Below are positions 1,270 through 23,319 of a stretch of DNA of 24,987 nt, piece after piece. Position numbers and translations under genes: made by a program. Position 1 is the first letter of the stretch; each line of letters opens with the position of its first letter. Origin of the DNA: a virus; the IMG/VR virus record IMGVR_UViG_3300037481_000216, positions 1 through 24,987 of that record, one strand, 5' to 3'. A model generated the notes under the pieces. That model was not told where the DNA came from and ran no database searches. It saw nothing but the letters and a program-made list of their open reading frames with translations.

Positions 1270-3286
1270 AGTAGATGGCCTCCTCACCGCTGAAGGTGGG
1301 GTGGATAGCGGTTTTTCGCCCTCACTCATTCAACCTAACCAGCTAGCATGGGCGGTAAACACGACGGTGCGCGGAGGATTTCCGAAAGCGCGACCTGGGA
1401 TTTGGACCAAACTGCTGAAGTTTGCCGATCCAACCGTTCTCTACGAAGGCGGTTACTACAATGCTGCGGTGGAATTAGCGTTCAAGGAAGGGTTGTTTCA
1501 GGGGTGCGGAACCTACATTTCCGATAATCAAGAGCCCTTCATTTTTGCGTCGATCGGAGGGAAGGTTTTCCAAATCGACATCAACGCCGGATTTACGGTC
1601 ACGGACCTGACTCCGATTGCATTTAATTTCGTCGTTTTTACACGCAGCCGGAGCGCCAATGTCGCGACCTACAATACCGGAGGATCGCATGGTCTTTCTG
1701 CCGGAATGGTCGTTAGGTTGCCAGAGGTCCCTGGAGCTACGGCTCCAGCTGGATTCTTTGGAGATTTTGTTGTTCAGACCGTTCCGACTTTAACGAGTTT
1801 CACCACATTTTCCCCGGGAACTGATGCTGGACCGCTTTTAGGACCAGCGTTTTTCGGATATCAACTTTCTACCAACAACCCAAGCGCGGAGCACGTTTAC
1901 TTTCAACAGGCTGAGAACTGGCTGATAATTCAAGACACTCAGAATCAGGCTTACTTATTCAACGGCTCTACCTTACGCCGAGCAACGGGCGATGAAGTTC
2001 CGGTTGGTGGTCCGATGGCTTACGGAAAAGGGCGCCTTTGGGTCGCAAATGGATCTCAATACTACGGAGGAGACCTTGTCTACGGCGATCCCGCTTACGG
2101 CCGAGACAGCGTGATTCGATTCACCGAGAACACATTCATCAATGAAGGCGGAGCGTTTGCAGTCGCGGATGGGCCAATCACGGGGCTGGCATTCGCGGCC
2201 AACCTGGACACGTCCCTTGGAGACGGCGACCTGCTGGTATTTACCCCGACCGCCACTTACGCGTTTAACGCGCCTGTGGACCGGGATGTTTGGAAGGATC
2301 TCTCTTATCCAATCCAGCGATTCGCGCTCCTGAACTTTGGTTCGTTCAACCACGAGTCTATCGTGCCGGTGAACGGAGACTTATTCTTTCGTGCTCAGGA
2401 CGGTATTCGATCGTTGATCTACGCCAGACGCGACTTTTCTGAGTTTGGAAACACACCGATCAGCCGGCAGGTTACTCGTGCGATAGCTTACGACACGGAG
2501 TTTTACCTTAAAGCTGCTAGCTCCGTGAACTTCGACAACCGGATGCTGATGACCATTCAGCCTCAGAAGGTCAACAATCGAGGTATCGTACACCGAGGAG
2601 TCGTGGTGCTGGACTTCGATCTTGTCTCTGGAATGGGTCGAAAACTTCCGCCGGCATGGGAGGGTGTATGGACTGGAGTGGATGTACTTCAGATGCTCAC
2701 CATCCGAATCCAGAAGCAGGATCGCTGCTTCATGTTTGGGTTGAATCAAGACAACATCGGGCTCTTTGAGGTCACGAAGAATGGCCAGTTTGACTTCGAT
2801 GGATACGATGATGTTCCGATCGAATGGACCATTGAAACTAGGTCGATCACATTTGGTGAACCTACAAACAAGAAGCGCCTTGTCAGCGCCGAGCAGTGGT
2901 ACGACCAGGTGATGGGAAACATCGAATCCAAGGTTTACTTCAAGGCCAACGAGGGCGAGTGCTGGCATCCTTGGGCCGAGATCAAGGACTGCGCCAAGTA
3001 TCGCAACTGCGAACCGGGTGAGATTTCATGCCCTCCTGCGGTGATCAAATGCCAGGAGGTCAAATACTATCAACCTCCCGCAAGATCGCGCATTGCCCTC
3101 CCCCAACCTCCGGACAAGTGTGACGTGCAGACCGGAGGGTTCACGCGTGACGGTTACGAGTTCCAGCTGCGCTACGTGAACACCGGACGTTTTCGTCTCA
3201 AGCGCGTGGCTATGGTTGCTCAACGACTTCAAGAGGATATCTACGGCGACCTCAGCCGCGTCGCCTGTCCGCTACTCTCCGAATAG
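1247..3286 (+). CDS. Putative tail nozzle protein (T7 gp12 / tail tubular protein B-like)
   Basis: Likely structural protein of 679 residues at the distal end of a short tail. The N-terminus has the pattern GGVDSGFSPSLIQPNQLAWA followed by TVRGGFPKARPG, a start I associate with podoviral nozzle-like proteins. Residues about 255-430 hold propeller-like strands (GKGRLWVANG, DGDLLVFTPTATYAF, GDLFFRAQDGIRSL). The C-terminus has a Cys-rich stretch (about residues 575-630) and ends in strands around YEFQLRYVNTGRFRLKR. Residues 132-193 are an inserted 'HGL' module also found in the neighbouring tailspike. The ATG at 1247 is chosen because the conserved-looking sequence starts soon after it; no Shine-Dalgarno is seen and TTG 1205 is less likely. 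It is the first gene of a gapless plus-strand virion operon. The assignment rests on position, size and texture; another tail-stabilisation protein is possible. Confidence 0.6.
   Translation: MVAEKNRIVDGLLTAEGGVDSGFSPSLIQPNQLAWAVNTTVRGGFPKARPGIWTKLLKFADPTVLYEGGYYNAAVELAFKEGLFQGCGTYISDNQEPFIFASIGGKVFQIDINAGFTVTDLTPIAFNFVVFTRSRSANVATYNTGGSHGLSAGMVVRLPEVPGATAPAGFFGDFVVQTVPTLTSFTTFSPGTDAGPLLGPAFFGYQLSTNNPSAEHVYFQQAENWLIIQDTQNQAYLFNGSTLRRATGDEVPVGGPMAYGKGRLWVANGSQYYGGDLVYGDPAYGRDSVIRFTENTFINEGGAFAVADGPITGLAFAANLDTSLGDGDLLVFTPTATYAFNAPVDRDVWKDLSYPIQRFALLNFGSFNHESIVPVNGDLFFRAQDGIRSLIYARRDFSEFGNTPISRQVTRAIAYDTEFYLKAASSVNFDNRMLMTIQPQKVNNRGIVHRGVVVLDFDLVSGMGRKLPPAWEGVWTGVDVLQMLTIRIQKQDRCFMFGLNQDNIGLFEVTKNGQFDFDGYDDVPIEWTIETRSITFGEPTNKKRLVSAEQWYDQVMGNIESKVYFKANEGECWHPWAEIKDCAKYRNCEPGEISCPPAVIKCQEVKYYQPPARSRIALPQPPDKCDVQTGGFTRDGYEFQLRYVNTGRFRLKRVAMVAQRLQEDIYGDLSRVACPLLSE
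1279..1285 (-). promoter_or_regulatory. Shine-Dalgarno site of the terminase gene
   Basis: On the minus strand this reads GAGGAGG, 9 nt before the ATG at 1269. It decides the start between 1269, 1248 and 1203. It lies inside the first codons of the oppositely oriented nozzle-like gene, where it also encodes part of Gly-Leu-Leu-Thr, so chance occurrence is possible. Confidence 0.55.
1640..1825 (+). repeat. 'HGL' beta-module copy in the nozzle-like protein
   Basis: This stretch encodes SANVATYNTGGSHGLSAGM, then a strand-rich half with a Gly-Asp-Phe-Val-Val core, ending in FSPGTD. It matches the modules of the adjacent tailspike in order and spacing: VATYNT, then HGL and a glycine, then FxGxFxV, then a Thr-Phe strand. 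It appears to be a domain shared between two different tail proteins. Confidence 0.75.
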
Positions 3287-3287
3287 T

Positions 3288-6200
3288 ATGCCATCATACA
3301 ACCCAGTCGATTACGGCGCCGATCCTTGCGGACTGAGAAACAGCGCGTGGGCGATCAGTGAATGCTTGAATCTCACTGGAAAGTGCCATTTCCCAGTTGG
3401 CACGTTTTTGCTGGGATCAAGTCCAGGAGCGAAGATTATCAACCGCGTCCGCACCGGAGGTGTTGCGACGTTCAACACGGCCACCGCGCACGGACTCGTA
3501 GTCGGAGAGAAGATTACGTTGTACGGGTTTACAGATGCCACGTTCAACGGCACAGGTCCATCACAGTATGGATTTTCGGTTCTCAGCACGCCTACCTCGA
3601 CGCAATTTACAGCGTCGATGCCTTTGCCGGCCTATCCAAATGCGCCGCTGGTCACTGAAGACGGTTGGATCAACCTTGTTGGCGGAGGATTCACATCTTC
3701 AATAATTCTTGGATACGATGCCGCGATCAACAACATCGAGATCACAGGTCAAGGTGCTGGAAAAACCATCCTTAAGTTTGCGGACCACACATCAACGAAG
3801 AGATTTGATTTGTTTAGTTTAAGCGCCCAGATGATTAAGACCATTGGAACAGCTGTTGGATCTGGAGTTGTAGGCGCTTCTGGAAGTCAGATTGGAAATC
3901 CGGTGTTTGCAACGAATTGCAAAAATACGCTGATACAAGGGATTACTGTAGATGGAAACTATAGAAACAATTCCGTTTCTGATATTAAAATAGCATCGGT
4001 TCAGAGAACTAACGGAATTAATACTTATAACTTTGCAATACCGCTAGTTGATCCAAATACTTCTGGTACACAGTTTTATGCAACTGCCCCGCCTGCATAC
4101 ACTCCTCCGATTCCACCGTTATACACAAACGTAAGTTTCTACAAACAATACATTAGTAATGTTGTAATTGCTGGATCAGGATCTGATATTACTTTTTCAG
4201 GTTATGGACAAGTTCAGAACCTAACTCAATTTTCGTTTCAACGCGACCTTCGCGCTGTGTTGATTTACGCAAGAAGGAACCCAGTTAACAAAGCGATCTA
4301 TACTCGCCATCCGAATTGGTACTTTCCGTTTACGATTGGAGACACATTCACGGTTACTGGATTTGCAGACGCAAGCCTGAATGGAGTGTTCGTTGTAGAA
4401 GGCTTCATATCTATTGATGAAATTTATTGTGCAAATATTGGGGCAACTACTGGAAACCAGATTACCTCATTTAAGCGCAGTTTTAACATTGCTACATACG
4501 ATACAGCTGCGGCTCACGGTTTCTTAGTAGGTCAACAAGTTCTGATACAAGACCTTTCCAACCCAGCTTTTAACGGCACGTTTACGGTGAGTGGAATCCC
4601 TTCGCCGGTAATATTTGAATGCGCGAATGTAGGTGTCTTTGTTGGTCCCACCGCAAGCGTTGGTTACGCCTATCTTCAAGTCGTTCAGAGTGCTAGAGCA
4701 TGGTCTGCTATAGACATCGCCCTTACTCCACAAACTAACGCTGGCGTAAACTCTGTATACACTATTGCTGGCATTAACCACACCGGAGAGAACGCGCTGA
4801 TTCAGGATTGCGAGTTCTACGATTTCGGTGATGGTACGTTGAATGCAGAATCGTTTGTGATCTTAACATTCCTACCAATGACGGTAGACGATGGAACTCC
4901 AGGCGCTAAAGTTCTAAGAAGCAAGTTTGGATACGAAGGAAGCAACTCGATCCAAGGTTCACTTTACCCTGGAACCGCAGAGGCGGTCACGGAAATTGTG
5001 GTTGGCGGGTATTCATCGCTGCTGAATCCGATCAACATCATATCAAGATCAGCCGGAATTGCGACATACACCTGCGTAATGAAGCACACGTTGAGGGTGG
5101 GTGACGTGGTGGTGGTAAGCGATTTTAATGTGCTTGACGCCGTGGCTGTTACATTCAACGGCACGTATACCGTTCTTACTATACCGGATCAGTATAAATT
5201 CACAGCTGCAAACGCTAACCCAAACGTCCTCCCTGGCCTCTACCGAGACGGCTCCGTGATGATGCTTCGCAGCCGGCGCATCTTTGCATCGGATTGTGTC
5301 GTAGAAGAAAACCAATTCATATCTGGACCCAATAGATCAGATGCTCAAAGCCCGTTGCACGCAGTGACGGTAAGGGAAACTGTTGATGCGGAAATCAGGT
5401 ACAACAATTTCAACGGATACATTGGAACTTGTTTCTACGTTGATTCGTTTTTCCATAAAGGAACTCACATACATGATAATGAAGCGTTGAATGTTGGCGC
5501 GTTTATTTCTCTGCAAACTTCAGATTACTACACGACTTATTTGTCTTTAGGAATAGCTAATCCAGATTCGTATTCCACATTCACTGCGGCGCATAAGGAC
5601 ATGGTCGTTGAAAACAACGATGTTTTATTGTCTGGTCCTGATTCATGGTATTACCAATACGCCTTTCCTCCGATCGACGCTGTATTTCTTATTAACAACC
5701 ATGATGTCGATAAATCAAAGTGGTACTATCCCACGGATTATCAGATACCAATTACATCAGCCACACGACTCACAGGCGTAACCACGTTTACAACAGCCTC
5801 AGCGCACGAGCTTCAACCCGGTTTTAAGGTGACGGTGTTGAAAACCGTCAAAGCTAGCTTTATCGGGAAATTCACGGTTATAGCAACTCCGACTACCACA
5901 ACTTTCACGGTCTTGAATGTGGGCGTAGATGAAAGCACCACGTTGGGTTTTCTGGGAATTGACAGCCCGATTAACTTCCCTTGGGAAATCCAGCCAATCG
6001 GATTTCAGCGTACCGCAGGCGTAGCCACGTACACCACGAACAAGGCGCATCAGCTGGTTGCTGGTTACCACGCCACCGTTGAAGGACTCAGCAACGCTTC
6101 GTTCAACGACGAGGTGATTGTGACTGGGATTCCTACGACCACGACTTTTACCTGTGCGAGCCCTGGAACAGACGTCGCGTTTACATCAGAAACCGGGAAC

Positions 6201-6437
6201 TTCCTGAGGTACGTCGAGAACATCCAGATTGGATGCAACACGGTGAGCCGGTTGAGTGGAAACCCGTTGGTGATCAACAACGGTGGCAGGTTCGCGACCT
6301 TTTTCATCAGCGGAAGATCATCGGGATGCGTTGCGCCTCTTGAGCAGTTCTTCTATTTCGATTGTCCCGAAGCCTGTTTGGCGCTTGAATGCGACCCGGG
6401 CCCATGTAAGCCAAACGACTACCTTTACCGCATCTAA
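3288..6437 (+). CDS. Tailspike / tail fibre, right-handed beta-helix type, with repeated HGL modules
   Basis: Probable receptor-binding or polysaccharide-degrading tailspike of 1049 residues. The N-terminus NPVDYGADPCGLRNSAWAIS followed by CHFPVGTFLLG is the usual opening of pectate-lyase-superfamily beta-helix phage spikes. Short strand-turn repeats with Asn ladders follow (NTLIQGITVDGNY, DCVVEENQFISG, AEIRYNNFNGYIG, DMVVENNDVLLSG). At least five full and one partial copies of a roughly 57-residue 'HGL' module are inserted between the helix coils. The last 45 residues hold six cysteines. The ATG at 3288 follows the upstream TAG after one base; no Shine-Dalgarno is seen, so translation probably reinitiates. 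The middle (about 3750-4780 and 5400-5750) is clearly more AT-rich than its neighbours, as in exchanged host-range regions. I cannot name catalytic residues. Confidence 0.82.
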   Translation: MPSYNPVDYGADPCGLRNSAWAISECLNLTGKCHFPVGTFLLGSSPGAKIINRVRTGGVATFNTATAHGLVVGEKITLYGFTDATFNGTGPSQYGFSVLSTPTSTQFTASMPLPAYPNAPLVTEDGWINLVGGGFTSSIILGYDAAINNIEITGQGAGKTILKFADHTSTKRFDLFSLSAQMIKTIGTAVGSGVVGASGSQIGNPVFATNCKNTLIQGITVDGNYRNNSVSDIKIASVQRTNGINTYNFAIPLVDPNTSGTQFYATAPPAYTPPIPPLYTNVSFYKQYISNVVIAGSGSDITFSGYGQVQNLTQFSFQRDLRAVLIYARRNPVNKAIYTRHPNWYFPFTIGDTFTVTGFADASLNGVFVVEGFISIDEIYCANIGATTGNQITSFKRSFNIATYDTAAAHGFLVGQQVLIQDLSNPAFNGTFTVSGIPSPVIFECANVGVFVGPTASVGYAYLQVVQSARAWSAIDIALTPQTNAGVNSVYTIAGINHTGENALIQDCEFYDFGDGTLNAESFVILTFLPMTVDDGTPGAKVLRSKFGYEGSNSIQGSLYPGTAEAVTEIVVGGYSSLLNPINIISRSAGIATYTCVMKHTLRVGDVVVVSDFNVLDAVAVTFNGTYTVLTIPDQYKFTAANANPNVLPGLYRDGSVMMLRSRRIFASDCVVEENQFISGPNRSDAQSPLHAVTVRETVDAEIRYNNFNGYIGTCFYVDSFFHKGTHIHDNEALNVGAFISLQTSDYYTTYLSLGIANPDSYSTFTAAHKDMVVENNDVLLSGPDSWYYQYAFPPIDAVFLINNHDVDKSKWYYPTDYQIPITSATRLTGVTTFTTASAHELQPGFKVTVLKTVKASFIGKFTVIATPTTTTFTVLNVGVDESTTLGFLGIDSPINFPWEIQPIGFQRTAGVATYTTNKAHQLVAGYHATVEGLSNASFNDEVIVTGIPTTTTFTCASPGTDVAFTSETGNFLRYVENIQIGCNTVSRLSGNPLVINNGGRFATFFISGRSSGCVAPLEQFFYFDCPEACLALECDPGPCKPNDYLYRI
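3444..6173 (+). repeat. Repeated HGL beta-modules within the tailspike
   Basis: Full copies lie at 3444-3620, 4467-4634, 5043-5213, 5757-5924 and 6000-6173. A copy lacking the first half lies at 4329-4442. The shared pattern is Arg-x-x-Gly-Val-Ala-Thr-Tyr/Phe, about five residues, then AHGL or a variant (MKHTL, AHEL, AHQL), then a V-x-G-(D/E/Q) turn, then F-N-G-x-F-x-V and Thr-x-F-T. Copies differ strongly at DNA level, so they are old or were acquired separately. Similar HGL modules are common in phage and bacterial surface proteins and are sometimes labelled FCCH-like in databases. Confidence 0.8.
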
Positions 6438-8498: not shown

Positions 8499-8971
8499 TG
8501 ACCCTGATGACTGAGGAGCTTCCAGTAGCCGTGCAGCCTGTGACGTGGCTCGACATCCTGACGGACGAGACCGTCACGTTTGACGATCGCCTGGACAGGT
8601 GGGAAGCGTTCGTGGCGAATATTCCGCAGCAGGAGTGCCCGCTGAAGCACACGTTCCCAGAGGGGATGTACGTGCGTGAAATCTTCATGCCGGCTGGATG
8701 TGTCGTCACCAGTCGAATCCATAAGTTCGACAACCCGTTCTTCATCACCAAAGGCAGGGTCACGGTAGTGAGCGAGAACGAGGGCATGGTGACCTACACG
8801 GCGCCGTATTCGGGCATAACCAAGCCAGGAACTCGCCGTGTGCTGTTGATCCATGAGGACACCATTTGGACCACGGTTCACCTGAATTTGGATAACAAGA
8901 CGGATCACGAAGAGCTTTTGAACGACCTTACTTACGTGGGTCAAAACCAATACTTACCATGTCATTCGTAG
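8498..8971 (+). CDS. Cupin-fold phage protein
   Basis: A 157-residue protein with a single cupin-like barrel. The core reads GMYVREIFMPAGCVVTSRIH, then FFITKGRVTVVSE, then YSGITKPGTRRVLLIHED and IWTTVHLN. Candidate metal ligands are His75, His119 and His128; the usual acidic ligand of cupin motif 1 is not obvious. Proteins with this ITKPGTRRVL..HEDTIWTT core recur in virion gene blocks of diverse phages, with no established function as far as I know. Its start overlaps the upstream stop by one base (TGATG) and its end overlaps the next gene by 13 bases. The ATG at 8507 is an alternative start. A role in virion assembly or in modifying a host sugar is possible but not shown. Confidence 0.75.
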   Translation: MTLMTEELPVAVQPVTWLDILTDETVTFDDRLDRWEAFVANIPQQECPLKHTFPEGMYVREIFMPAGCVVTSRIHKFDNPFFITKGRVTVVSENEGMVTYTAPYSGITKPGTRRVLLIHEDTIWTTVHLNLDNKTDHEELLNDLTYVGQNQYLPCHS

Positions 8972-9711
8972 CCACAGCAGTTATAGGAATCGGAGCCGGA
9001 GCTGCCGTCGGAGGGATCGGCGCAGCAGTCGGAGCTAATCAAGCTAGCAAGGATCGCGCTGGCGCTCGCGGCGTCGCGAATATGCCCGGCCTTGACGTTG
9101 GGTCAGCCGTGGGAGAGGCAGGTCAACTGGCGCCTCAAACCAGAGAGCTTGAAGCGCAACGAAACGCCTTCAACCGGGCGCAGCTTCTTGAATCTCTCGG
9201 CATCCAGATTCCCGGCTATCAGGAAGGTCAGCTTCAGCGCACCCAGAACGCAATGTCGTTGCTTCGTGGAGAATTGCCGCCTGATCTTGCTTCCCAAATC
9301 CAACGTAACACGGCATCCAAAGCTCTAACTGGTGGTTACGCTGGAAGCCAGGCGGCTCGCAACCTGACGGCGCGAGACATTGGTAGGACATCACTCGATC
9401 TTCAACAGGCGGGCAATCAACAGTTCGCCAACATTCTAGGAACCACACCCCTGTCTCCTTTGGCAAACTACGAGTTCACACCTCAAATGATTGCAAACTT
9501 GAGGGCCGAAGAGCGTGCCAAAAAACAAGCCGCTTTGCTTGGGTCGTATAACATGGCAAGCGCAGGCGGAGTTGGTAGCCAGTACCTCGGATCACTAGGG
9601 TCTGGTTTGACCAGTGTTGGATTTGGTGCGTTAGGACAAATGGGAGGCGCCGCAAGCGGAACCAGCGGACTCGTTCAAACCCAGCAAAACATCATGCCGA
9701 AAACGATCTAA
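8959..9711 (+). CDS. Putative internal virion (ejection) protein, T7 gp14-like
   Basis: A 250-residue protein with a Gly/Ala-rich hydrophobic N-terminus (residues 3-27, FVATAVIGIGAGAAVGGIGA and on), then a helical, Gln/Ala-rich body (QLQRTQNAMSLLRGELPPDL; NTASKALTGGYAGSQAARNL) and a Gly/Ser-rich C-terminus. Size, membrane-active start and place, first of three genes ending in a giant protein, match the T7 ejection core series gp14-gp15-gp16. The ATG at 8959 overlaps the cupin gene by 13 bases; no Shine-Dalgarno is seen. It would leave the capsid with the DNA and form part of a channel across the cell envelope. This is inferred from context, not from a diagnostic motif. Confidence 0.55.
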   Translation: MSFVATAVIGIGAGAAVGGIGAAVGANQASKDRAGARGVANMPGLDVGSAVGEAGQLAPQTRELEAQRNAFNRAQLLESLGIQIPGYQEGQLQRTQNAMSLLRGELPPDLASQIQRNTASKALTGGYAGSQAARNLTARDIGRTSLDLQQAGNQQFANILGTTPLSPLANYEFTPQMIANLRAEERAKKQAALLGSYNMASAGGVGSQYLGSLGSGLTSVGFGALGQMGGAASGTSGLVQTQQNIMPKTI

Positions 9712-9714
9712 CCT

Positions 9715-11154
9715 ATGGCAAACCCTTTCTCAGGACTCGAAAATATCGGGCAGTCGTACCTCCAAGGCGTGCAGCTGGCGAATCAGCGGCAGTATAGGGA
9801 GGAAGCAGCAGCGCAGCGTGCTGAAGATACGCGGGTGCGGCAGCAGTATTACACCCAGATGGGCGCTGACCGGGAGGCTGCGTTGAAGGAGAGAACCAAA
9901 GCGCGGATGGATCAGTTTGCGTCCGTGTTTGGTAAAAACCTCAAACTGACACAAGATGGGGATGTTGACATCCCAGCTTCCGCTCTCGCTCGCGACAGAG
10001 CAATGCAGGAGGAGCAACTGGCCAGCGCAGAGGGAGAGCTTGGTGCCCTGTATGGAACCCAAGCGCCGCTATCACCAGAGGTCATTGGCAGTCCAGCCTA
10101 TCAGACTGGGCGCCTTCGCGGGACGGCAAAGCGAATGGCCCAAGAGAAGGATCTTACTGCGGCCATGATTCGACGTGGGTTTATGCCTGCTAATGAAGAG
10201 TCGGATCGAGAACTTCCAGAGGATGTAAGGAATCAAATCGAGGGATTTTCTCCTGACATTTTTAGCGGTGGAGGAGCGCCTCTAACAGCGGCTTCTATGG
10301 GTGCTGGTGCTCCGGCTGGCGGGGGTCAACAAATTTCATTTGCTGGAAGACAGTGGAATGCACCGGCTGCAAGGGCAGGAAAAGCCGAGAAGGCGGGGAC
10401 CATGAAGTTCACCGACCCTAATGGCGTTGAATACAGTTTACCTGTTTCGCCCGAAGCTGCTCGTGATTTGCTAACCAAACGCTTGGCGTCGCCAGAAGGT
10501 GAGCAAGACCCGTACGCCGACATCGACGAAGCGTATAAGACTTTAAAGAAGCTACGCCTAGGCAAGAACGAAGATTTCAATCTCGAACGTCTTCCTGACG
10601 GCACGGTCAAAGTTGTTCCGGATAAAATTTCTTCCTGGGGCTATAGCGCAGCTGAAATCAAAAAAGACCTAGAACTTGAGCGCAAAAACCGGGAGCAAAT
10701 TCTAAAGGAATCAAAAGCAGAATCCGAAACGATGCCTGACTCGGCGGCTGGCATCAAACAGGGCACTAATCGCGTTCCTTCAATCGCGCCCAACCGAGTC
10801 ACAGACTATCGATCAATCCCAAATCTTCCCCGCATTGGACGCGGCACCAACGCTCCGGTAGCTACAACCAACGCTCCGCCTCAAGCAAGACTTCCGGTTG
10901 ATTCGCTTGCGCCAGCCAGCTCTATGTCAAGTGAGTCGCTGGGAATCGATCCAGAGGAGCTTCGCCAAGCCATGCTTGAGGCTCAGTCCAACGGTATGGA
11001 CCCCGCAGTTCTCGGGCTTCAAATACGTCAGGCACTCAATGAGGCAGGCGTTCCAACGGCAGCCGGAACGAACTCCATTCCATTCGGGTTGTCTAATGAA
11101 AAATTGGATGCAATCCTGCGATTGCCGCGTGGTCGTGCGCCCGTGGAACTCTAA
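9715..11154 (+). CDS. Putative internal virion protein, T7 gp15-like position
   Basis: A 479-residue, charged, largely helical protein. Residues 1-75 are coiled-coil-like (QLANQRQYREEAAAQRAEDT; DREAALKERTKARMDQFASV). The middle (about 180-220) is Gly/Ala-rich and low complexity. Residues 225-320 contain a compact segment (TMKFTDPNGVEYSLPVSPEA; LPDGTVKVVPDKISSWGYSA), and the C-terminal 130 residues are disordered, Pro/Asn-rich, ending in a short helix. No enzyme motif is visible. It lies three bases after the preceding gene and six before the giant protein, so it is probably its partner in the ejected core. The function is inferred from position only. Confidence 0.5.
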   Translation: MANPFSGLENIGQSYLQGVQLANQRQYREEAAAQRAEDTRVRQQYYTQMGADREAALKERTKARMDQFASVFGKNLKLTQDGDVDIPASALARDRAMQEEQLASAEGELGALYGTQAPLSPEVIGSPAYQTGRLRGTAKRMAQEKDLTAAMIRRGFMPANEESDRELPEDVRNQIEGFSPDIFSGGGAPLTAASMGAGAPAGGGQQISFAGRQWNAPAARAGKAEKAGTMKFTDPNGVEYSLPVSPEAARDLLTKRLASPEGEQDPYADIDEAYKTLKKLRLGKNEDFNLERLPDGTVKVVPDKISSWGYSAAEIKKDLELERKNREQILKESKAESETMPDSAAGIKQGTNRVPSIAPNRVTDYRSIPNLPRIGRGTNAPVATTNAPPQARLPVDSLAPASSMSSESLGIDPEELRQAMLEAQSNGMDPAVLGLQIRQALNEAGVPTAAGTNSIPFGLSNEKLDAILRLPRGRAPVEL

Positions 11155-11160
11155 TTTACT

Positions 11161-14100
11161 ATGGCAATCGAGATCGACTTTGGACGCGAGCTGGGTCGGT
11201 TAGCGTTTCCGGATGACATTACGGATGAGCAGGCTCAGTCCTACGTTCGTGAAAATTATCAAGCGATCCGACAAGGACTTCTTGGTCAGCGGCAGGAAGA
11301 GCTAGCAGCTGAGACAGAATCGCAGGAAGCCGCGAAGTACCGTGCTGGTGATTACGGTACACTTGAAACGATTGGAGGCGTGGTTGCAGAGCTTCCGAAG
11401 GCCGTCACCGAAGGCTTTGGTGGAGCCATGAAAGGTGCAGAACGCCTTAGTGGAATGGTTCCGGCGCGTCAATTTAATCCATTCACAGGTCAGATTGGCG
11501 CTCAGATCCAGCCGTCATTTGAACCTGGACAAGGCGATCTTTCAAAAGCCGGACAAGCTGTTCAAGAGTTTGGGCGCGAGACGTTTCCTTCGCTACCTGG
11601 AGTTCAAGAAAGCATACCCGCTCAAATCGCAGGAGGTGTCGGAAGCACGCTGTCTGTACTTCCAGGTGCGCTTTTAGCTGGTCCCGTTGGTGCAGGCGCT
11701 CTCTACGGATTGTCCGCAGGTGAAGCTGGAGCTGAAGATGCCCGCAAAGTTATTAACCGGCGCATCGCTGAACGGCTTGCAGCTGGTGACTCGCAAGGAG
11801 CTGAGGATCTTCAATCACAGGCGTCGCAGCTGGAATCGCAGGCGTTCCTCCTAAACGCTGCCATCGGTGGTGTGTCGGAGGGTGTGCTTGGCGTCGCAGG
11901 AAAAATCCGTTTTGGAAAATCCAACATCGGTGGCGTTGGAGCCCGCCTCGCCGAACGAATGATTCCGAAGGCTGCTAGCTTGCGGACTCAGAACATGATC
12001 CGTGGCGGCGTAGAGGGCGTCGTTACAGAAGGTCTTCAGGAATCATTGGAGCAGTCCATGGGTAACATGGCCGCCAAGGTTACCTACGAACCCGAGCGCG
12101 GCATCATGGATGGCGTAGCGCAGGCTGGATTTATTGGCGCTGCGACCGGCGGTCTGGTTGGTGGCGCCATTGGATCTAAGCGGAATCCGAATCTTGCAAA
12201 AGCAAACGCAATCGCCGAGGCCACAGGTGCCGATCCTGCCAACCCGTTGCCGCGTTCAACAGCGACAGTTTCTGGTTTGCAAGACGGGCCTCAATCCATG
12301 GGTCCGATTGACATCGAGCCCGAGATAACGCCGGAGGATGTCATGCGGATGTCTCAGGAGGCTGGGATTCCTATGCCGGCCGAAGAGGTAGCTCCTGTGC
12401 CCGCCCCGGTGGTTGCGCCAGTACCTGCACCGCAGGCCGTCGTAACTCCTGCCCCCGCGCCTACACCTGTCACTCCCGCCCCTGCCGCCGCCCCTGTCAC
12501 CCCTGCCGCCGCAACTGTCGATGCCGAAACCGGCTTACGCTCCGACGAGCAGGATGAACTCGATCAGCTAATCACGGCCGAAGATGCCGGCCTGCTGAGC
12601 GAAGATGATGCTCTTACTCTTGCGGCTTACCGTGCCCGGTTGGGTGGGGTTGAGCCTGCTGCAATACAAACTCAACCTACCATATCCAGTGCCGTTCAAG
12701 AACAAGGCCCAAGTGAAGGCGTGCTACGCGCAGAAGAGCAGCAACCCCCAATCAAAGTGGGACTGCGACAAGTGGATCAAGGAGGGCGGCCTGCCGAAAG
12801 CAGCGGGGCCGAAGTCCAAGTCACCCCGCAAGAAGTACGGCAAGTAAAGGCGGCGGTGGTGGTGGCTCCTGCGCCTGTTGCGGCCAAGCCTGCGGCCAAG
12901 CCTGCTGAAGAACTGACCGAGAAACAATACTACGATCAACGCGTCAAGGAAATCGCCGATGCCAACAGCATTGGTCAATCCGAGGTGCGTGATCTCTTCT
13001 CTCAAGAAGACGCAAACCTGGAATACTGGCAGCTAATTCAAAAAGCTGCTGAATCAGGTAAGCAATTCAAATCACAGACGCTAGATCGCCTTCCTCAAGC
13101 ACGCGTCGAATTTCTACGGAGGAACTTTCCTCAATCCATTCCTCAAGGATATTTTTATCCAGGGGTGGTGAAAACCATTGCACCCGCTCCCACCTACACT
13201 CCGGCACGAATCAACAAGCTCCTCCAGTCGCTAAAGGCCAGGGCTACAGCTGTTGGCAAAGGGTTGTATGAGATCAAAAAGCTGGCACCGGGACAGAGGT
13301 TGGTTCTCCGCGATAGCTATGGCAGGCTTCAGGAAACTGATCAGTTTCTGTTGCGAGAGAAATCTGAGGTGACAGGCAATGTTTACGACGAAGGGTTTAT
13401 CCTGCGCGACAAGCAGGAGTATGCCGCTGGTCAGGCTCCGAGGCAGGCGCCTACTCCCGCACCAGTTACACCTGCACCAGTTGCGCCCACTCCTGCGCCT
13501 GCTACATCCTCCGACGTTCTAGATCAAATGACGCTCTGGCGGAGAAAGAAGCCGAGCCCACTTAAACGTGCATACGGCTTAAATCCAACTCCAGAGCAAG
13601 CTGCGTCTCACAAGAAACAGGTTGCGGCTTGGGAAAAGGAATACCGGCGTCTTGGAAAGCTATACAAAACTCTCGAACAAGAAAAAGCTCAGCGTGCAAC
13701 CAAAGTTCGCCCCGCATCCCCTAATGAGCAGGTTCAACCTCCAGCTGCGGCCGGTGCCCCGATGCAAGAAGGCATCGACAACATCAAGTTTGTCAGCGAA
13801 CCCGTTGCTCAAGCTCGCGGCGGTGGCATGGATGCCAAGGATGCCAAGGCTAAGCTTGTTCAGCAGCTGGAGCGTGCGGTTGCCGCTGCGCCTGATGCAA
13901 GTGATCCCAACCCCCGAGTTCCCAAGGTCACGATCGAGATCCCTGGAGATGGCACCTACACGGTTTCTAACACGAAGCAGGCGCTGAATCAGGTTTTAGC
14001 AAAAGCCCAGAAGCTCAATACTTCGACGGCAAAAGGACCCGTGCGTGCTCCAGCCGCTGCTAGAAAGCCTGAGCGTGCAAACGAAATGCTGATGCGGATG

Positions 14101-17100
14101 GCGAAGCAGGCGGTTCAGGTGTACGGCAAGAACGCCGCTGCAAAGCTGCGAGAGCAGGCTGCTAATCCCGACCTCGAACTTACTGATGCACAGCGCAATG
14201 ACTTACGGGTGATTGCGGACATGATAACCCCTGTAGTCGCCGAACCCACCGAAGCCGAACTTCAAGCAGCTGAGGAAGCCCGCCTAGCTCAAGCTGAGCA
14301 AGAGATCGACGCCGGCCCGATTGGCCAAGCCAAGCAGAAGTTGGAGGATGAAGGCTCCGACATGAAAAAGAGCCAGGTTAAAGCCATGGCGCGTAAGCTG
14401 GAGAAGGCCGGCGTCATTGATGACTCTGAGTTGGATGATGAAGGTCGCGACACCGAAGTGGATGAGCTGGTTGGCCAGCTGCTAGAACGAATCGAAGAGG
14501 CCCGCGACAACGCGATTCAAGAGCGGGAACAGGAGTTGGCCGATGAAGCGAAGGTTGAAAAGGTGGCTCCGAAACCTGCCCCAATCAGTAAGGTAGCCCA
14601 AATAATCTCCAAGCTGGAAAACCTCAAGGTTGATACCGGCGGAACATTCGATGCTGTCCTCGGGATTCCTGCACTCATCTGGAACGGTGCGCTGATCACT
14701 GCTCAAAACGCCTTACGCGCTGGCAAGGCGGTCACTGAAGCCATCGATGCCGCAATCGAATACATTCGCACAAGCCTCAACGAGAAGCAGGCTGCCCGGG
14801 TTAATCTGGACGCGGTGCGTGAGCAGTTTGAAACTGACTTGGTTTTAGGCCGATCCGTATCTGAAATAATCAATGACGGAAAACTAAGCGGGTACAAGCA
14901 GAAGGCTCGTCACCTTATGCCAGAGGAACGCCGCAAGCTGCGGTCGGATACCAAAAAAACTTTCGTCAAACTGTTTAATGAACTGCCACCTGTCTCTGAG
15001 TTTGCTGCGGCTGCCCTAGGTGGAGCAGTGAAACGAGGCTGGTATCGCAAATCGGCCGAGGCATTAATTGGGGTTTTTGGAGTCGATGCCCCTCGATTCG
15101 CTGCGTTGCTAGCAGGTCTAAGTCCTCAAACCAGCGTTGAAGACAACCTGATCAACGCGCTTAACGTCTGGAAAAATTGGAACCTTGCCGGTCGCCCAAC
15201 CGATCGCGCTGCCATCATCTCGGTTATGGGCCGGTCTGTGCAGGGAAACAAAGGTGAGAAGAGCATTTTACCTGCCTGGGCTGACAACTCAGTTCGAGCA
15301 CTGAGTTCTGAAGACCCGACCTCCATCACTCTTAGTGGACCTAAGGTCAACTCGTTCATGTTGAACCTGCGTGGCGTAGTCAACGAGGTGACTAACGACG
15401 CGTGGATGGCAAACTTTGCGCTGGTCGATCAAAATATGTTTAGCGGAGGTCTAAACGTTACCGGCACAGATCCTGGCAAAGGCCCGGGCTACCTTGCCAT
15501 GGCGGCAAAGGTAAGGGCCACAGCGGAGTATCTCACCGAGCTAACCGGCGACCAATGGACCCCAGCAGAGGTTCAGGAAACGGTATGGAGCTGGGCTAAG
15601 ACGCTGTACGAACTTCAGGGGCGACGCGGAGAAACCCGTAACGCTGTTGAGATTCTCAAGGCTGGAGACCTTACCGAGGAAGCTATTGCCGGCACTCCAG
15701 ATTTCGCTACGCTTCTTGCCGATGGAGAATATCGACGCATCCTCGCCGAAGCTGGGTACGGAAACCAAATTGAGGAGATTGCTCGACGAAGTGCTGAGCT
15801 TCGAGGAACGCAACGACCAGTCTCTGCAAGCCAAGCAGCTGCGGCTGCTTCGCAAACTCTCCGAAATGCCGAAGAGCGAGCAGCCCGTCGCCTAGTCCAG
15901 CTGCGGAAACAACGGATCGCTAAGGCTGAGGCCGAACGCAATCAGCGCCCCGACCGGGTCGAAGCCATCCTCAAGAAGGTAATCGCCGCTACCGATCCCA
16001 AGGGCAAGGTCTTCGAGGCTGTAGCCGGGTTGTCGAACTTCGTAGTTTTCCAAGCCACGAAGATCGCGCTCCGCATCTATCAGGCTACTAAGTCCTGGGT
16101 CGCCGCCCGCAATGCTGGCATGGACTACATCAAGTCCCACGTCCAGCTGAGCAACGAGGAAGAGACTGCCGCTAACTTCGAGGAGCACATCAAGGCTTTC
16201 CCGAATCAGGAGATCCCTGCTGGAACACCTGAACGTCCGCAGCCGCCGTCTCCGGATGTGCGCGTTCCTTCCCGTGGTTTGTTCCTTGGAGACATTAGCA
16301 CGGATACCGATGAGAACTGGGCATCCGAGGCAAAGAAGTGGGTCGATTTCTTCAAGGGCAACCTTGAGCGCGCATTCCAGCTTGCGTTGACCGCCGACAT
16401 CGACAACGCGTTCAAGGAATACATCCTTGGAGAAATCATCCAACGCAACCAGCTGGACATCGCCCGGGCCAAGAACGACGTCGAAGTACTGCGAGCGTTG
16501 AACCTTGAAACGCGACTGGCGGATTCAAAGAAATCGCTTGGTGCTGTTACCGCTAAGGCGATGGCCGCTCGGAATCTTTCTAATGAACGCTTCTGGTGGG
16601 CGCAGCCTGCGATGATACTTCGCAACCTGATTCGCAAGCGTCAGGATGAGTTGATCCCGTTCTCCAAGATTGAGTCTGAGCAGGTGCGTAAATGGCTCTC
16701 TGAATCAGGTCGCGAGGCGGTAAATCAGATTCGCGAGGCCATGAAGAAAGCGGACGCTGTGTTCGCTCGCGAGTTCCGTAAGATCAAGCAGGTCCCCGGT
16801 GAGGCCGACGGCCCTCCTATCGAGATTAAGTGGCAGGACATCCTGACTCAGGCTCTAGACACTCAAGGTTCTGTGCGTCAGAAGATGCTTCAGGTGATCC
16901 TGGCTGACCCACGTCTGCGTAACCTAAGTCCTGCTGGCATTGCGGAGATCACCAACCTCTTGACCAAAGCCTGGGAAACAAAGCGGAACCAAATCTTCCG
17001 AGCTGAGTTTCAAAAGAAGGTGCCGCTGCCGAACGTCAAACCCGATGTTCGCGAGAAGCTCCTCCGTTCTCTCCCTCGCATTCTAAAGTACGCCAACATT

Positions 17101-19116
17101 GCCAGGGCTACACCGGGCAGTTTCTCGATTCAAGACGGCCCTGATACGTTCCTGCTGTGGAATCAGGCATTTCGAGACGCAGTGGCGCCGGAGTTTGGTG
17201 TCGCTGAGCTTAACGGAATCACCGCCCGAAAGATCACTGACCTAGCACAGAAGGCGCAGGCTCAAAGCGGAGTCAATCGAAACGAGATTATCCAGCAGAT
17301 GTTTCGCCTCATGGCCCGAGAAGGCGGCGTCAAATTCTCGGATGCACTGCGTGATTACTGGTACGCGGCGGTGCTATCAGGCCTCCGCACGCAGGTAGAC
17401 AACTGGGCGAACGTGTATAACGGATTCCTCAACACAGCCATGTTTGCTGCCATGGCAAAGAAGGATGCTGGTTTTATAGCCTACTCTTCACTCAAGGGAC
17501 TCGCCGAAGGTATCCGCGACTTCTGGCCTATGCTCTGGCATGGTGAGCTTTACCGCTCCGTCAACTTTAACCCTGACCAACCCGGCAGCGCACTCGAAGG
17601 TCTCGGGGAATCTCGCAATCTGTTCGCCAAGGGAATCAGTCAGTTCAAGTACGTTGGTCGCCTCATCAACGCGCTCGATCACATGACTGCGCTGATGTCT
17701 GACTCAACCGCTAAGGCATACGCTTTGCGTAAGTTGTACGGCCCTGAGGTTGCCCGCCAGTATCTTACTCCGTCGCCAGAGGTCGTTGCTGCGGCCCGTG
17801 CTCGTGCGGTTGCTGAAGGCACGCGTCCGGAACTAATCAACAAGCGGACTCGCGAAATTATTCAGGAGAATTTGCCCGTCGAAATCTTGCTGACCGCGAA
17901 AGAGATTCGCGAGATGACCACGTTTACCGAAACACCTCAGGGGTTACTTGGAAGCCTGTACCGTGGTCTGGATCAAGCGGCTCAAGGCAAGACGATCTAC
18001 AAGGTCCTTTCGGGAACGAACTTTCTGCGGTTTGCAGCAAACTCTGCGAACGAGATTCTGAACTTCGCTTTCCCGGTTGCGTTTATTCGGTACTACCAAT
18101 CCGCACCTGGAAGGTCAGAAGGCGAATACGGTCTGAAGTTTTCCGAGTCGCGCCGCGACCTTCTCTTAGCCAAGGCGGCGTTTGGAACTGCGCTTGGCAT
18201 CTATGCTGGCGCCTTATTCCTCGGTGACGATGACAAGGAAGAGGATCGCAACATGGACATCACTGGGTCGTTTAAGTCCCTCGATCCGAACAAGCGCAAG
18301 CAGCTGCTAGCAGAAGGCCGTCAGCCGTATTCCATTCGGTTCGGCAACACCTACGTGTCTTACCGCCAGATGGGATTTGGTGGCGTGCTTGCAACTATCG
18401 GTGAACTCCGCGATCGCCAGTTGTTCTCCCCGGATAAGTGGTCTCAGGAAAACATCCTGGAAAAAATGGCGGATGGCGCCGCAGCTGGAATGTTTATCAT
18501 CAAGGATTCGACCGCGATCTCCGGTCTAACCGAGCTTCTGGGCTTTGCCAACGCCTACAAGTACGACACCGATGAGTTCATCGAGAAATCATTCCCGCGC
18601 TACGTTTCACGTCTGGCCGGGTCCTTGGTGCCCAACATTCTTAAGGAGGTCGATGCCTGGTCTGACCCGTCGATCTTTAAGACTGAGGCTGGAAACCTCG
18701 GCTACGAATACTTCCTTCAGCAAGTACCGTTCGGCCGTCGCGAGATCGGGCCAGGTCCGATCCTCAACGTGCTAGGCGAACCAGTTAAAGTTGAGAGGTA
18801 TCCGTGGAGTCGGTGGGCCAAAGAGCGCGAGGTTGATCCTGCGTGGAGCACCCTAGGATCACTCGCCAGCAAAGGCGTGTTTATGCCGACGCCAGCTATC
18901 ACCGTGAAGGTCAACGAAAACGGCACACGCCGAGAGCTGACCCGCGAAGAAAAATACACCTACCAACAGGCCGTTGGTCAGGGTTACCGCAAGTTTATCG
19001 AGCAGAATCGGGAGCGGCTGCTAGCTCTCCCGCCTGCCCAAGCCTCGGATCTAATCGACAAGAATGCAGATCGCATTCGTCGAAATGCCCGAACAAATCT
19101 GAAAAATTCGTTCTGA
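11161..19116 (+). CDS. Giant polyvalent-type internal virion protein (2651 residues)
   Basis: Probably carried in the virion and ejected with the DNA, like T7 gp16 but about twice as long. Residues 1-60 are helical. Residues 150-345 hold Gly/Ala-rich, membrane-like helices (GALLAGPVGAGALYGLSAGE; FIGAATGGLVGGAIG). Pro/Ala linkers lie near 406-457, 566-584 and 759-784. Residues 1141-1210 and 1600-1665 are two related helical modules. Residues about 1261-1490 form a globular domain with GWYRKSAEALIGVFGVDAPR, LAGLSPQTSVEDNLINAL, SGPKVNSFMLNLRG and DAWMANFALVDQ; it recalls a domain I associate with phage polyvalent proteins (DUF7178-like). Residues 2065-2651 resemble the C-terminal module of large phage ejection proteins, with a hydrophobic helix at about 2338-2355 and a late NVLGEPVKVERYPWSRW motif. 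No lysozyme or polymerase motif is seen. The ATG at 11161 has no Shine-Dalgarno. Confidence 0.75.
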   Translation: MAIEIDFGRELGRLAFPDDITDEQAQSYVRENYQAIRQGLLGQRQEELAAETESQEAAKYRAGDYGTLETIGGVVAELPKAVTEGFGGAMKGAERLSGMVPARQFNPFTGQIGAQIQPSFEPGQGDLSKAGQAVQEFGRETFPSLPGVQESIPAQIAGGVGSTLSVLPGALLAGPVGAGALYGLSAGEAGAEDARKVINRRIAERLAAGDSQGAEDLQSQASQLESQAFLLNAAIGGVSEGVLGVAGKIRFGKSNIGGVGARLAERMIPKAASLRTQNMIRGGVEGVVTEGLQESLEQSMGNMAAKVTYEPERGIMDGVAQAGFIGAATGGLVGGAIGSKRNPNLAKANAIAEATGADPANPLPRSTATVSGLQDGPQSMGPIDIEPEITPEDVMRMSQEAGIPMPAEEVAPVPAPVVAPVPAPQAVVTPAPAPTPVTPAPAAAPVTPAAATVDAETGLRSDEQDELDQLITAEDAGLLSEDDALTLAAYRARLGGVEPAAIQTQPTISSAVQEQGPSEGVLRAEEQQPPIKVGLRQVDQGGRPAESSGAEVQVTPQEVRQVKAAVVVAPAPVAAKPAAKPAEELTEKQYYDQRVKEIADANSIGQSEVRDLFSQEDANLEYWQLIQKAAESGKQFKSQTLDRLPQARVEFLRRNFPQSIPQGYFYPGVVKTIAPAPTYTPARINKLLQSLKARATAVGKGLYEIKKLAPGQRLVLRDSYGRLQETDQFLLREKSEVTGNVYDEGFILRDKQEYAAGQAPRQAPTPAPVTPAPVAPTPAPATSSDVLDQMTLWRRKKPSPLKRAYGLNPTPEQAASHKKQVAAWEKEYRRLGKLYKTLEQEKAQRATKVRPASPNEQVQPPAAAGAPMQEGIDNIKFVSEPVAQARGGGMDAKDAKAKLVQQLERAVAAAPDASDPNPRVPKVTIEIPGDGTYTVSNTKQALNQVLAKAQKLNTSTAKGPVRAPAAARKPERANEMLMRMAKQAVQVYGKNAAAKLREQAANPDLELTDAQRNDLRVIADMITPVVAEPTEAELQAAEEARLAQAEQEIDAGPIGQAKQKLEDEGSDMKKSQVKAMARKLEKAGVIDDSELDDEGRDTEVDELVGQLLERIEEARDNAIQEREQELADEAKVEKVAPKPAPISKVAQIISKLENLKVDTGGTFDAVLGIPALIWNGALITAQNALRAGKAVTEAIDAAIEYIRTSLNEKQAARVNLDAVREQFETDLVLGRSVSEIINDGKLSGYKQKARHLMPEERRKLRSDTKKTFVKLFNELPPVSEFAAAALGGAVKRGWYRKSAEALIGVFGVDAPRFAALLAGLSPQTSVEDNLINALNVWKNWNLAGRPTDRAAIISVMGRSVQGNKGEKSILPAWADNSVRALSSEDPTSITLSGPKVNSFMLNLRGVVNEVTNDAWMANFALVDQNMFSGGLNVTGTDPGKGPGYLAMAAKVRATAEYLTELTGDQWTPAEVQETVWSWAKTLYELQGRRGETRNAVEILKAGDLTEEAIAGTPDFATLLADGEYRRILAEAGYGNQIEEIARRSAELRGTQRPVSASQAAAAASQTLRNAEERAARRLVQLRKQRIAKAEAERNQRPDRVEAILKKVIAATDPKGKVFEAVAGLSNFVVFQATKIALRIYQATKSWVAARNAGMDYIKSHVQLSNEEETAANFEEHIKAFPNQEIPAGTPERPQPPSPDVRVPSRGLFLGDISTDTDENWASEAKKWVDFFKGNLERAFQLALTADIDNAFKEYILGEIIQRNQLDIARAKNDVEVLRALNLETRLADSKKSLGAVTAKAMAARNLSNERFWWAQPAMILRNLIRKRQDELIPFSKIESEQVRKWLSESGREAVNQIREAMKKADAVFAREFRKIKQVPGEADGPPIEIKWQDILTQALDTQGSVRQKMLQVILADPRLRNLSPAGIAEITNLLTKAWETKRNQIFRAEFQKKVPLPNVKPDVREKLLRSLPRILKYANIARATPGSFSIQDGPDTFLLWNQAFRDAVAPEFGVAELNGITARKITDLAQKAQAQSGVNRNEIIQQMFRLMAREGGVKFSDALRDYWYAAVLSGLRTQVDNWANVYNGFLNTAMFAAMAKKDAGFIAYSSLKGLAEGIRDFWPMLWHGELYRSVNFNPDQPGSALEGLGESRNLFAKGISQFKYVGRLINALDHMTALMSDSTAKAYALRKLYGPEVARQYLTPSPEVVAAARARAVAEGTRPELINKRTREIIQENLPVEILLTAKEIREMTTFTETPQGLLGSLYRGLDQAAQGKTIYKVLSGTNFLRFAANSANEILNFAFPVAFIRYYQSAPGRSEGEYGLKFSESRRDLLLAKAAFGTALGIYAGALFLGDDDKEEDRNMDITGSFKSLDPNKRKQLLAEGRQPYSIRFGNTYVSYRQMGFGGVLATIGELRDRQLFSPDKWSQENILEKMADGAAAGMFIIKDSTAISGLTELLGFANAYKYDTDEFIEKSFPRYVSRLAGSLVPNILKEVDAWSDPSIFKTEAGNLGYEYFLQQVPFGRREIGPGPILNVLGEPVKVERYPWSRWAKEREVDPAWSTLGSLASKGVFMPTPAITVKVNENGTRRELTREEKYTYQQAVGQGYRKFIEQNRERLLALPPAQASDLIDKNADRIRRNARTNLKNSF
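12376..12530 (+). repeat. Pro/Ala low-complexity linker in the giant protein
   Basis: It encodes repeated Pro-Ala-Pro and Thr-Pro-Ala units (PVPAPVVAPVPAP and on). Similar linkers recur at 12856-12912, where GCGGCCAAGCCT is repeated in tandem (AKPAAKP), and at 13435-13510. They separate folded segments and are probably extended spacers that let the protein thread through the tail. Confidence 0.8.
14581..14790 (+). repeat. Helical module, copy 1, of the giant protein
   Basis: Residues about 1141-1210: IISKLENLKVDTGGTFDAVL, then IPALIWNGALITAQNALRAG, then AVTEAIDAAIEYIRTSLNE. It matches copy 2 at 15958-16155 in the order helix, Gly-x-(T/V)-F-(D/E)-A-V turn, hydrophobic helix and D-Y/E-Y-I-(R/K)-(T/S) ending. 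The two flank the DUF7178-like domain. Confidence 0.65.
15958..16155 (+). repeat. Helical module, copy 2, of the giant protein
   Basis: Residues about 1600-1665: VEAILKKVIAATDPKGKVFE, then AVAGLSNFVVFQATKIALRI, then WVAARNAGMDYIKSHVQLSN. It is the divergent duplicate of the segment at 14581-14790, followed by an acidic stretch (EEETAANFEEHI). Confidence 0.65.
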
Positions 19117-22583: not shown

Positions 22584-22780
22584 AAGACACAGTAGCATTC
22601 ATCTACGTCCACGCATTTAACGGACTAGTGCGCGTGGAGAGCTTGGATACCGCTCGCAACATCGATGGTAATCCAGAATGGAAACACGTTAGCACTATCA
22701 ACCCTTTCGCTTGGTTAGAGGTGATGCTTCGAGCTTCGACAAAAGACAGAAACAAAATCATCAAACACCTACTAACATGA
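22580..22780 (+). CDS. Small unknown protein, paralogue B
   Basis: A 66-residue protein (MKDTVAFIYVHAFNGLVRVE; then EWKHVSTINPFAWLEVMLRA and KDRNKIIKHLLT). It matches the upstream gene from AFIY/CFIY to the end, with a shorter middle. The ATGA overlap and AAGGAG support the start. The MKDT opening is also shared with the membrane protein at 21932. Function unknown. Confidence 0.65.
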   Translation: MKDTVAFIYVHAFNGLVRVESLDTARNIDGNPEWKHVSTINPFAWLEVMLRASTKDRNKIIKHLLT

Positions 22781-23319
22781 CCTACTCACAATCCGGTCAA
22801 CTCCCCTACCACCAATACTGTCTCGTCGATGCCTCGTTTATATCCAGTCGCACCGGGTTTATCCCATGCGTCTGGTTCGGTCTGGTCTCCATCCCAGGCA
22901 GGATGTGGGGCTGTACCATCCTGCTGGAATGCGGAGCCGTCTACCGGGAGGTGCCGCCGCACGCGCTAGCATTCCAAGAAAACCCTGAACTCGACTGGCG
23001 CGTAGACCACGCACAGCGCTGGGACTGCTACGGCCGCGAGTTCTCAACCATCGAATACACGTACCTCCGAGGCGTGGGAGTCATCGCTAAGAACTGCGAC
23101 GGAGAGTCCTTTGGAGAATACCTCTTCACCGCCGCACCCATCGACGACGGGTTCAGCCGTTACCCTGAGCAAGCTAAGGAGTTCTGCTTCATCAAGCTGA
23201 ACAACGGCCGCCTTACCATCCAACCCACCGACAAAGTCCTATTCACTGACGACTCTTTCGCCACTCCTGAGTGGCCGACGGATCTTAAAACCACCACTGA
23301 AATCTACAGCTGCGAATGA
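22777..23319 (+). CDS. Unknown 180-residue protein, conserved-looking
   Basis: It starts at ATG 22777 in an ATGA overlap; an upstream in-frame TTG/GTG would run back through the previous gene and is less likely. The protein is rich in aromatic and cysteine residues: QYCLVDASFISSRTGFIPCV, then WFGLVSIPGRMWGCTILLEC, GAVYREVPPHALAF, and QRWDCYGREFSTIEYTYLRG. The last third is strand-like (KEFCFIKLNNGRLTIQPTDK). Motifs such as PPHALAF and QRWDCYGREF look strongly constrained, as in an enzyme or a specific host-protein binder. I do not recognise the family. It is the largest unknown in the early operon. Confidence 0.65.
   Translation: MTYSQSGQLPYHQYCLVDASFISSRTGFIPCVWFGLVSIPGRMWGCTILLECGAVYREVPPHALAFQENPELDWRVDHAQRWDCYGREFSTIEYTYLRGVGVIAKNCDGESFGEYLFTAAPIDDGFSRYPEQAKEFCFIKLNNGRLTIQPTDKVLFTDDSFATPEWPTDLKTTTEIYSCE

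Follow-up and report, generated by a model that had tools for sequence, protein, structure and literature searches.

The 24,987-base virus contig IMGVR_UViG_3300037481_000216, analyzed over its whole length and called the window here, contains on its plus strand an open reading frame (ORF) for a giant polyvalent-type putative ejection (internal virion) protein of 2651 residues (11161..19116). We read this product, with a probability of roughly 0.6, as an ejected polyvalent protein in which an exchangeable slot holds a DNA-glycosylase/apurinic-apyrimidinic (AP)-lyase-like enzyme that would act on DNA early in infection. A first-pass annotation of the contig had described the ORF as encoding a virion protein with an embedded DUF7178-like, polyvalent-protein-like domain and had seen in two of its motifs a hint of a helix-hairpin-helix (HhH) DNA glycosylase. 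The ORF proved to be intact, with an ATG start and no internal stops, and the full-length relatives comprise 2456-2765 residues.

A DUF7178 domain with a predicted HhH-GPD fold

A Pfam scan assigned residues 1293-1476 to PF23802 (DUF7178, a domain of unknown function) with 31 bits and an E value of 3.1e-7, above the family gathering threshold of 27 bits. The family scored 35 bits in a six-frame search of the genome, and residues 1293-1480 matched phrog_3842 (E 1.3e-10). The hidden Markov model search thus bears out the suggested DUF7178-like domain, and the four motifs singled out in the first-pass annotation all lie inside the Pfam match: GWYRKSAEAL (residues 1293-1302), LSPQTSVEDN (residues 1320-1329), SGPKVNSF (residues 1392-1399, plus strand 15334..15357), and NDAWMANFALVDQ (residues 1412-1424, plus strand 15394..15432). 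The third motif holds K1395, the predicted Schiff-base lysine, and the fourth holds D1413, the predicted catalytic aspartate. These two residues, 18 positions apart, are invariant in the alignments of 46 embedded and 10 stand-alone proteins.

With the 46 aligned embedded domains as input, AlphaFold2 returned an all-alpha model of residues 1245-1545 (plus strand 14893..15795) with a predicted local distance difference test score (pLDDT) of 93.5 and a predicted template modeling score of 0.90. A globular domain had been proposed for residues ~1261-1490; the domain was recovered, but its extent was not, as the folded unit covers residues ~1245-1545. The 1000 top Foldseek chains from the Protein Data Bank (PDB) were re-aligned to the model by VIA-align, and the five best entries were all 8-oxoguanine DNA glycosylases: 3knt (Z 11.1, with a root-mean-square deviation of 3.3 and 177 residues aligned), 3n0u (10.9), 3fhg (10.2), 1xqp (6.7), and 1xqo (6.4). 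The sixth entry was a phage thymidine-modifying enzyme (8z2n, Z 5.0), and the next, unrelated row had a Z of 3.7, so that the six best entries are HhH-GPD-fold enzymes without exception. In the model the helix that follows the hairpin starts with the lysine, and the aspartate lies before the helix after that, as in HhH-GPD enzymes, and the pair sits in HhH-GPD register with OGG2 and Nth-like proteins. On the basis of this confident model, the uniform set of best matches, and the invariant pair, we consider the predicted HhH-GPD fold well supported, in agreement with the earlier hint.

Profile comparisons by hhalign provide weak to moderate evidence for an HhH-GPD relationship that is independent of the structural evidence. 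The profile of the stand-alone DUF7178 proteins gave an E of 2.2e-4 in alignment with an OGG2-family protein, lysine falling on lysine and the aspartate at an aspartate-containing motif. Against general HhH-GPD proteins the E was 0.017, and the register was the expected one, with GPK-T-A over RKTA and VTVD over IAVD. For each of the two template sets the score exceeded all of the column-shuffled decoys (60/60). From the model and these alignments we infer that the DUF7178 domain would work as a glycosylase/AP-lyase. OGG2 enzymes recognize 8-oxoguanine (8-oxoG) through a C-terminal lysine, the carboxylate of which senses N7-H (PMC3397491). The embedded domain is internal to its polypeptide, so that its C-terminus is not free, and the stand-alone proteins carry no terminal lysine; 8-oxoG is therefore not the substrate that we propose, and the idea of a true OGG2 enzyme with 8-oxoG specificity was rejected.

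When the whole 2651-residue protein was compared by tblastn with 50,697 phage records, one weak relative was found, in podovirus MW202801. IMG/VR contained close whole-protein relatives together with many giant proteins that have the DUF7178 domain alone in common; a profile scan of that database confirmed 165 relatives, 80 of which were retained, and one GTDB scan found only three. The domain takes many different positions across 77 distinct ORFs, the products of which reach 4081 residues. Its dN/dS ratio (nonsynonymous to synonymous substitution rates) is 0.03-0.25, which places it under purifying selection. Stand-alone DUF7178 proteins of ~200 residues are found in actinophages and T7-like marine phages, and several of them carry the depositor name "glycosylase." One stand-alone member, PP885686.1 gp111 of phage Tunturi_3 (L132:3004-3597), is labelled "portal protein," probably a misannotation. 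In two cases only, Sheen (L128:3153-3626) and Cece (L130:616-1077), a gene for an SprT-like protease lies a few genes from the stand-alone DUF7178 gene; SprT-type proteases target DNA-protein crosslinks, and Schiff-base glycosylases are able to form such crosslinks.

Effector exchange at a single slot

The domain occupies a slot at residues ~1143-1588 (plus strand 14587..15924), a feature that the first-pass annotation had missed. Its borders were defined by DNA comparisons of the window with L013, of L004 with L005, and of L012 with L009 (L numbers designate individual loci). Between the window and L013 the DNA similarity ends at ~14586 and returns at 15925, and between L004 and L005 it breaks at the slot and returns at 96%. 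In L005-L010, L013, and L015 both flanks are kept, the DUF7178 domain is absent, and other sequence fills the slot. For the types tested by Pfam (L005, L009, and L149) this sequence is ART-PolyVal, an ADP-ribosyltransferase (ART), and the ART cassettes are of at least three distinct kinds.

Slot content does not track the relationship of the backbones. The C-termini of L137, which carries DUF7178, and L138, which carries an ART, are 98-99% identical, and those of L151 (DUF7178) and L140-L146 (ART) are 98% identical. L004, L011, and L012 have the same protein sequence in the DUF7178 domain. The synonymous divergence (dS) of the window from L012 is 0.21 for the domain versus 1.2 for the C-terminal backbone. 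Because almost identical C-termini are joined to different cassettes, the DNA similarity has sharp breakpoints, and the dS of the domain is below that of the backbone, the slot contents must have been moved by recombination. We conclude that effectors are exchanged at this one slot, a conclusion that is well supported. An obligatory structural part was considered as a role for the domain and was rejected, since sister phages replace it. Weakly similar amphipathic/hydrophobic helical stretches lie on either side of the slot, at 14602-14800 (FDAVLGIPALIWNGALITAQNAL...) and 15950-16150 (FEAVAGLSNFVVFQATKIALRIY...), and a stretch of the same type is present in relatives that carry an ART (LAKLALQIAKGLIQVGVAV); these stretches may mark the borders or serve in membrane passage.

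Giant proteins with a DUF7178 domain also carry the polyvalent domains ART-PolyVal, MuF_C, InPase, SLT, GNAT, zeta toxin, and LPD22/23/38/39, in line with the polyvalent-protein-like character claimed for the domain at first pass. ART and DUF7178 share one polypeptide in 16 of the 77 distinct ORFs, and in more distant giants (L019, L022, L050, and others) the ART stands directly N-terminal of DUF7178. The single ORF L099:6755-17716 combines DUF7178 with zeta toxin, MuF_C, GNAT, and ART-PolyVal, and L050:3665-11965 combines it with SLT, InPase, GNAT, and ART-PolyVal. Both polypeptides thus unite at least two domains of disparate biochemical activity, as polyvalent proteins do. The protein of the window has one recognized enzymatic domain plus a virion module, and its gene position and C-terminal homology, the latter traced via relatives, suggest that it belongs among the virion genes and is injected, as is predicted of polyvalent proteins.

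A C-terminal module related to internal virion proteins

The C-terminal module (residues 2000-2651, plus strand 17158..19113) was delimited by its similarity to MW202801, L152, and a gene of L049, and has a hydrophobic segment at residues 2334-2355. Residues ~2000-2651 are related to a 1121-residue protein of podovirus MW202801 and to L152, both of which match phrog_6651, annotated "internal virion protein" (E 1.3e-25 for L152); L025 matches the same family at E 2.1e-24. In L049 the DUF7178 domain is encoded by a separate 616-residue gene, the end of which overlaps the start of a 955-residue gene, and the product of the latter aligned by hhalign with the C-terminal module of the window at E 7.5e-15 and with phrog_6651 at E 2.1e-33. 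The gene order in L049 is head-tail adaptor, head-assembly-like, tail protein, internal virion protein, 582-residue ORF, DUF7178 protein, internal virion protein, and tail fibre. This is a T7-like ejection operon with a DUF7178 gene inside, and the existence of fused and split gene forms ties the domain to an ejection protein. By way of the intermediates L152, L025, and L049, the C-terminal module is assigned by homology to the internal virion protein family, and the giant protein would be packaged in the virion and delivered.

Remaining modules and genome setting

The N-terminal module (residues 1-360, plus strand 11161..12240), recognized from hydropathy and from 25% identity with the N-terminus of the giant DUF7178 protein of L019, has three Gly/Ala-rich hydrophobic stretches (residues 156-187, 228-247, and 319-338) that are candidate membrane segments. 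It is followed by a variable mosaic region (residues 361-1142, plus strand 12241..14586) of small modules separated by Pro/Ala-rich linkers. Besides the slot downstream of it, this region is a second site of variation: it differs by ~810 bp between L005 and L009 on the one hand and L004 and L012 on the other, and its small modules reappear in changed order between the linkers.

Upstream of the giant ORF are tail-like genes with matches to phrog_4900 and phrog_12032, followed by two unassigned plus-strand ORFs. The 250-residue ORF (8959..9711), with a hydrophobic Gly/Ala-rich N-terminus, gave no match in PHROG and Pfam searches, and the 479-residue ORF (9715..11154) adjoins the giant ORF; by position they would be the small and the middle ejection protein, respectively. 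Starting 45 bp 3' of the giant ORF, on the same strand, are a RecT-like gene and an exonuclease VIII-like gene. Elsewhere in the window, a putative tail protein of 1073 residues (3216-6437) contains several copies of a ~50-residue motif (resembling VATYxTxxAHxLxxGxxVxxxGFxxxxFNGxFxVxxIPxxxxFT), one similar copy of which is found in the 693-residue ORF before it (1205-3286). A minus-strand ORF resembling the terminase large subunit (1-1329; phrog_2, E 5.6e-4; Walker A motif GPGSSGKT) is divergent from all later genes, and a 202-residue ORF (22711-23319) matches phrog_3704, "ferredoxin," in the auxiliary metabolic gene category (E 1.8e-20). PADLOC models gave no relevant match.

Discussion

In our proposal, the phage would be podovirus-like and its largest ejection protein would be the product of this gene, a polyvalent protein whose N- and C-terminal modules, with their hydrophobic segments, enclose a mosaic, linker-rich middle with one effector slot. 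After adsorption the giant protein would exit the capsid together with the genome, and the DUF7178 domain would excise or process a DNA base in the first moments of infection. A role in host takeover or counter-defence is likelier than a structural one because relatives place an ART in the same slot. ARTs have been discussed as modifiers of host proteins, for example of RNA polymerase by T4 Alt (PMC5512222). By analogy with these slot mates, the target may be host or defence DNA and not the DNA of the phage itself. It is a tentative suggestion, and one held with some doubt, that the giant ejection protein uses its glycosylase/AP-lyase as a weapon that strips bases from host or defence DNA at entry and that is swapped with ARTs according to the defences met.

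Several results weigh against our proposal. A Foldseek search of the PDB with the domain model gave no match at E 0.001, PF00730 was unmatched in Pfam scans, and three domain profiles run against the sequences of PDB chains returned chance-like matches only, the best being a gapped and partial alignment to an oxidoreductase (E 0.00089). The embedded-domain profile gave no significant hhalign score with OGG2 or Nth-like sequences, nor was hhalign significant with the canonical OGG2 (L120) as the only template; a significant score called for the broader stand-alone profile. Mostly helical models may also attain middling VIA-align Z scores by chance; set against this are the membership of all six top entries in one superfamily and the clear drop to 3.7 that follows them. 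With respect to the virion, the protein of the window had no direct match to phrog_6651 in the PHROG search, so that the link runs via relatives, and AlphaFold2 modeled the C-terminal module too poorly (pLDDT 41.7) for a structure search.

Other explanations share part of this evidence. The domain could possibly be a delivered repair enzyme that, before phage gene expression, starts base excision repair of bases in the packaged genome that were oxidised or damaged in another way while outside the cell, a reading in keeping with 8-oxoG DNA glycosylases as the nearest solved folds and with the neighbours of the stand-alone relatives, which include SprT-like proteases, a ParB-like nuclease, a DNA methyltransferase, and a DNA ligase annotation. 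We nevertheless favour host or defence-related DNA as the target over repair of the phage genome, because the slot mates are ARTs and not repair enzymes, while keeping both readings. A role for the domain as a base-modifying transferase with an HhH-GPD scaffold, comparable to the 5-PmdU glycinyltransferase PUGT, is unlikely; such an enzyme would shield the incoming DNA from restriction and would not excise bases. PUGT of phage PaMx11 (8z2n) is among the structural matches, and SIO1 gp9, a stand-alone DUF7178 protein, is encoded near a thymidylate synthase gene; however, 8z2n is the weakest HhH match, no base-hypermodification genes were recognized in the window, itself a genome fragment, and the lysine-aspartate pair, which is fully conserved, is the hallmark of bifunctional glycosylases.

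HhH motifs in many proteins bind DNA without catalysis, and the sequence similarity of the domain to active glycosylases is faint, as would be seen if catalysis had been lost and the domain now had a DNA-binding or structural role in the ejection machine. We find this rather improbable, given the invariance of K1395 and D1413 in very divergent embedded and stand-alone members and the dispensability of the domain, with an ART in its place in relatives. An early cytoplasmic protein, in place of a virion protein, could be imagined from the RecT and exonuclease VIII-like genes just downstream on the same strand and from the missing direct PHROG virion match. Such a role is highly improbable in view of the C-terminal homology to phrog_6651 via L152, L025, and L049 and the location of the split L049 genes, which are flanked by those for a tail protein and an internal virion protein and by that for the tail fibre.

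Polyvalent proteins form a catalogue of enzymes predicted to be delivered with phage DNA, to which our proposal would add an effector with a DNA-glycosylase fold, and for DUF7178 an enzyme class is now predicted, with K1395 and D1413 as the candidate catalytic residues. A family of virion-delivered base-excision enzymes may thereby be identified. Near-identical phage backbones that differ in the slot effector amount to a natural experiment, so that the role of the slot can be tested through sister phages. In the literature searched, subscription journals being outside the search, no paper naming DUF7178 was found, and polyvalent proteins and a DNA glycosylase were mentioned together only in PMC7824862, where the term refers to T4 endonuclease V. 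No description of pairwise effector exchange at one slot was found either. Polyvalent proteins, ejection proteins, and HhH-GPD enzymes are known kinds; their combination is not found in the literature searched.

Compared with these known systems, the protein of the window resembles the polyvalent proteins of Iyer et al. 2017 (PMC5512222) as a giant multidomain putative virion protein with ART-PolyVal in the slot of sister phages; it differs in its predicted DNA glycosylase domain, which the main text of that paper does not include ("glycosylase" occurs there 0 times at a word start). The co-directional genes for 250, 479, and 2651 residues, placed after the tail genes with the largest last, recall gp14-gp15-gp16 of T7-like phages, but the giant protein is about twice as long as T7 gp16 and the Pfam scan found no transglycosylase domain in it. 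With the OGG2 enzymes MjaOgg (3knt), TmaOgg (3n0u), and SsoOgg (3fhg) the domain shares an all-alpha fold (Z 10.2-11.1 over 177-182 residues) and the lysine and aspartate in HhH-GPD arrangement, whereas identity is 11-13% and the free C-terminal lysine that senses 8-oxoG is lacking. PUGT, gp46 of PaMx11, is likewise phage-encoded and HhH-like in fold, but the match is weaker (Z 5.0) and the window has no recognized base-hypermodification genes. Further counterparts are the stand-alone DUF7178/phrog_3842 proteins (SIO1 gp9, Sheen gp85, Kumao gp115, and Cece gp22), which belong to the same family by profile comparison and have invariant W-Y, S-P, N, K, F, D, Y, Q, and W positions in common with the embedded domain; relative to them, the domain of the window is ~100 residues longer, lies inside a 2651-residue putative virion protein, and is exchanged as a cassette.
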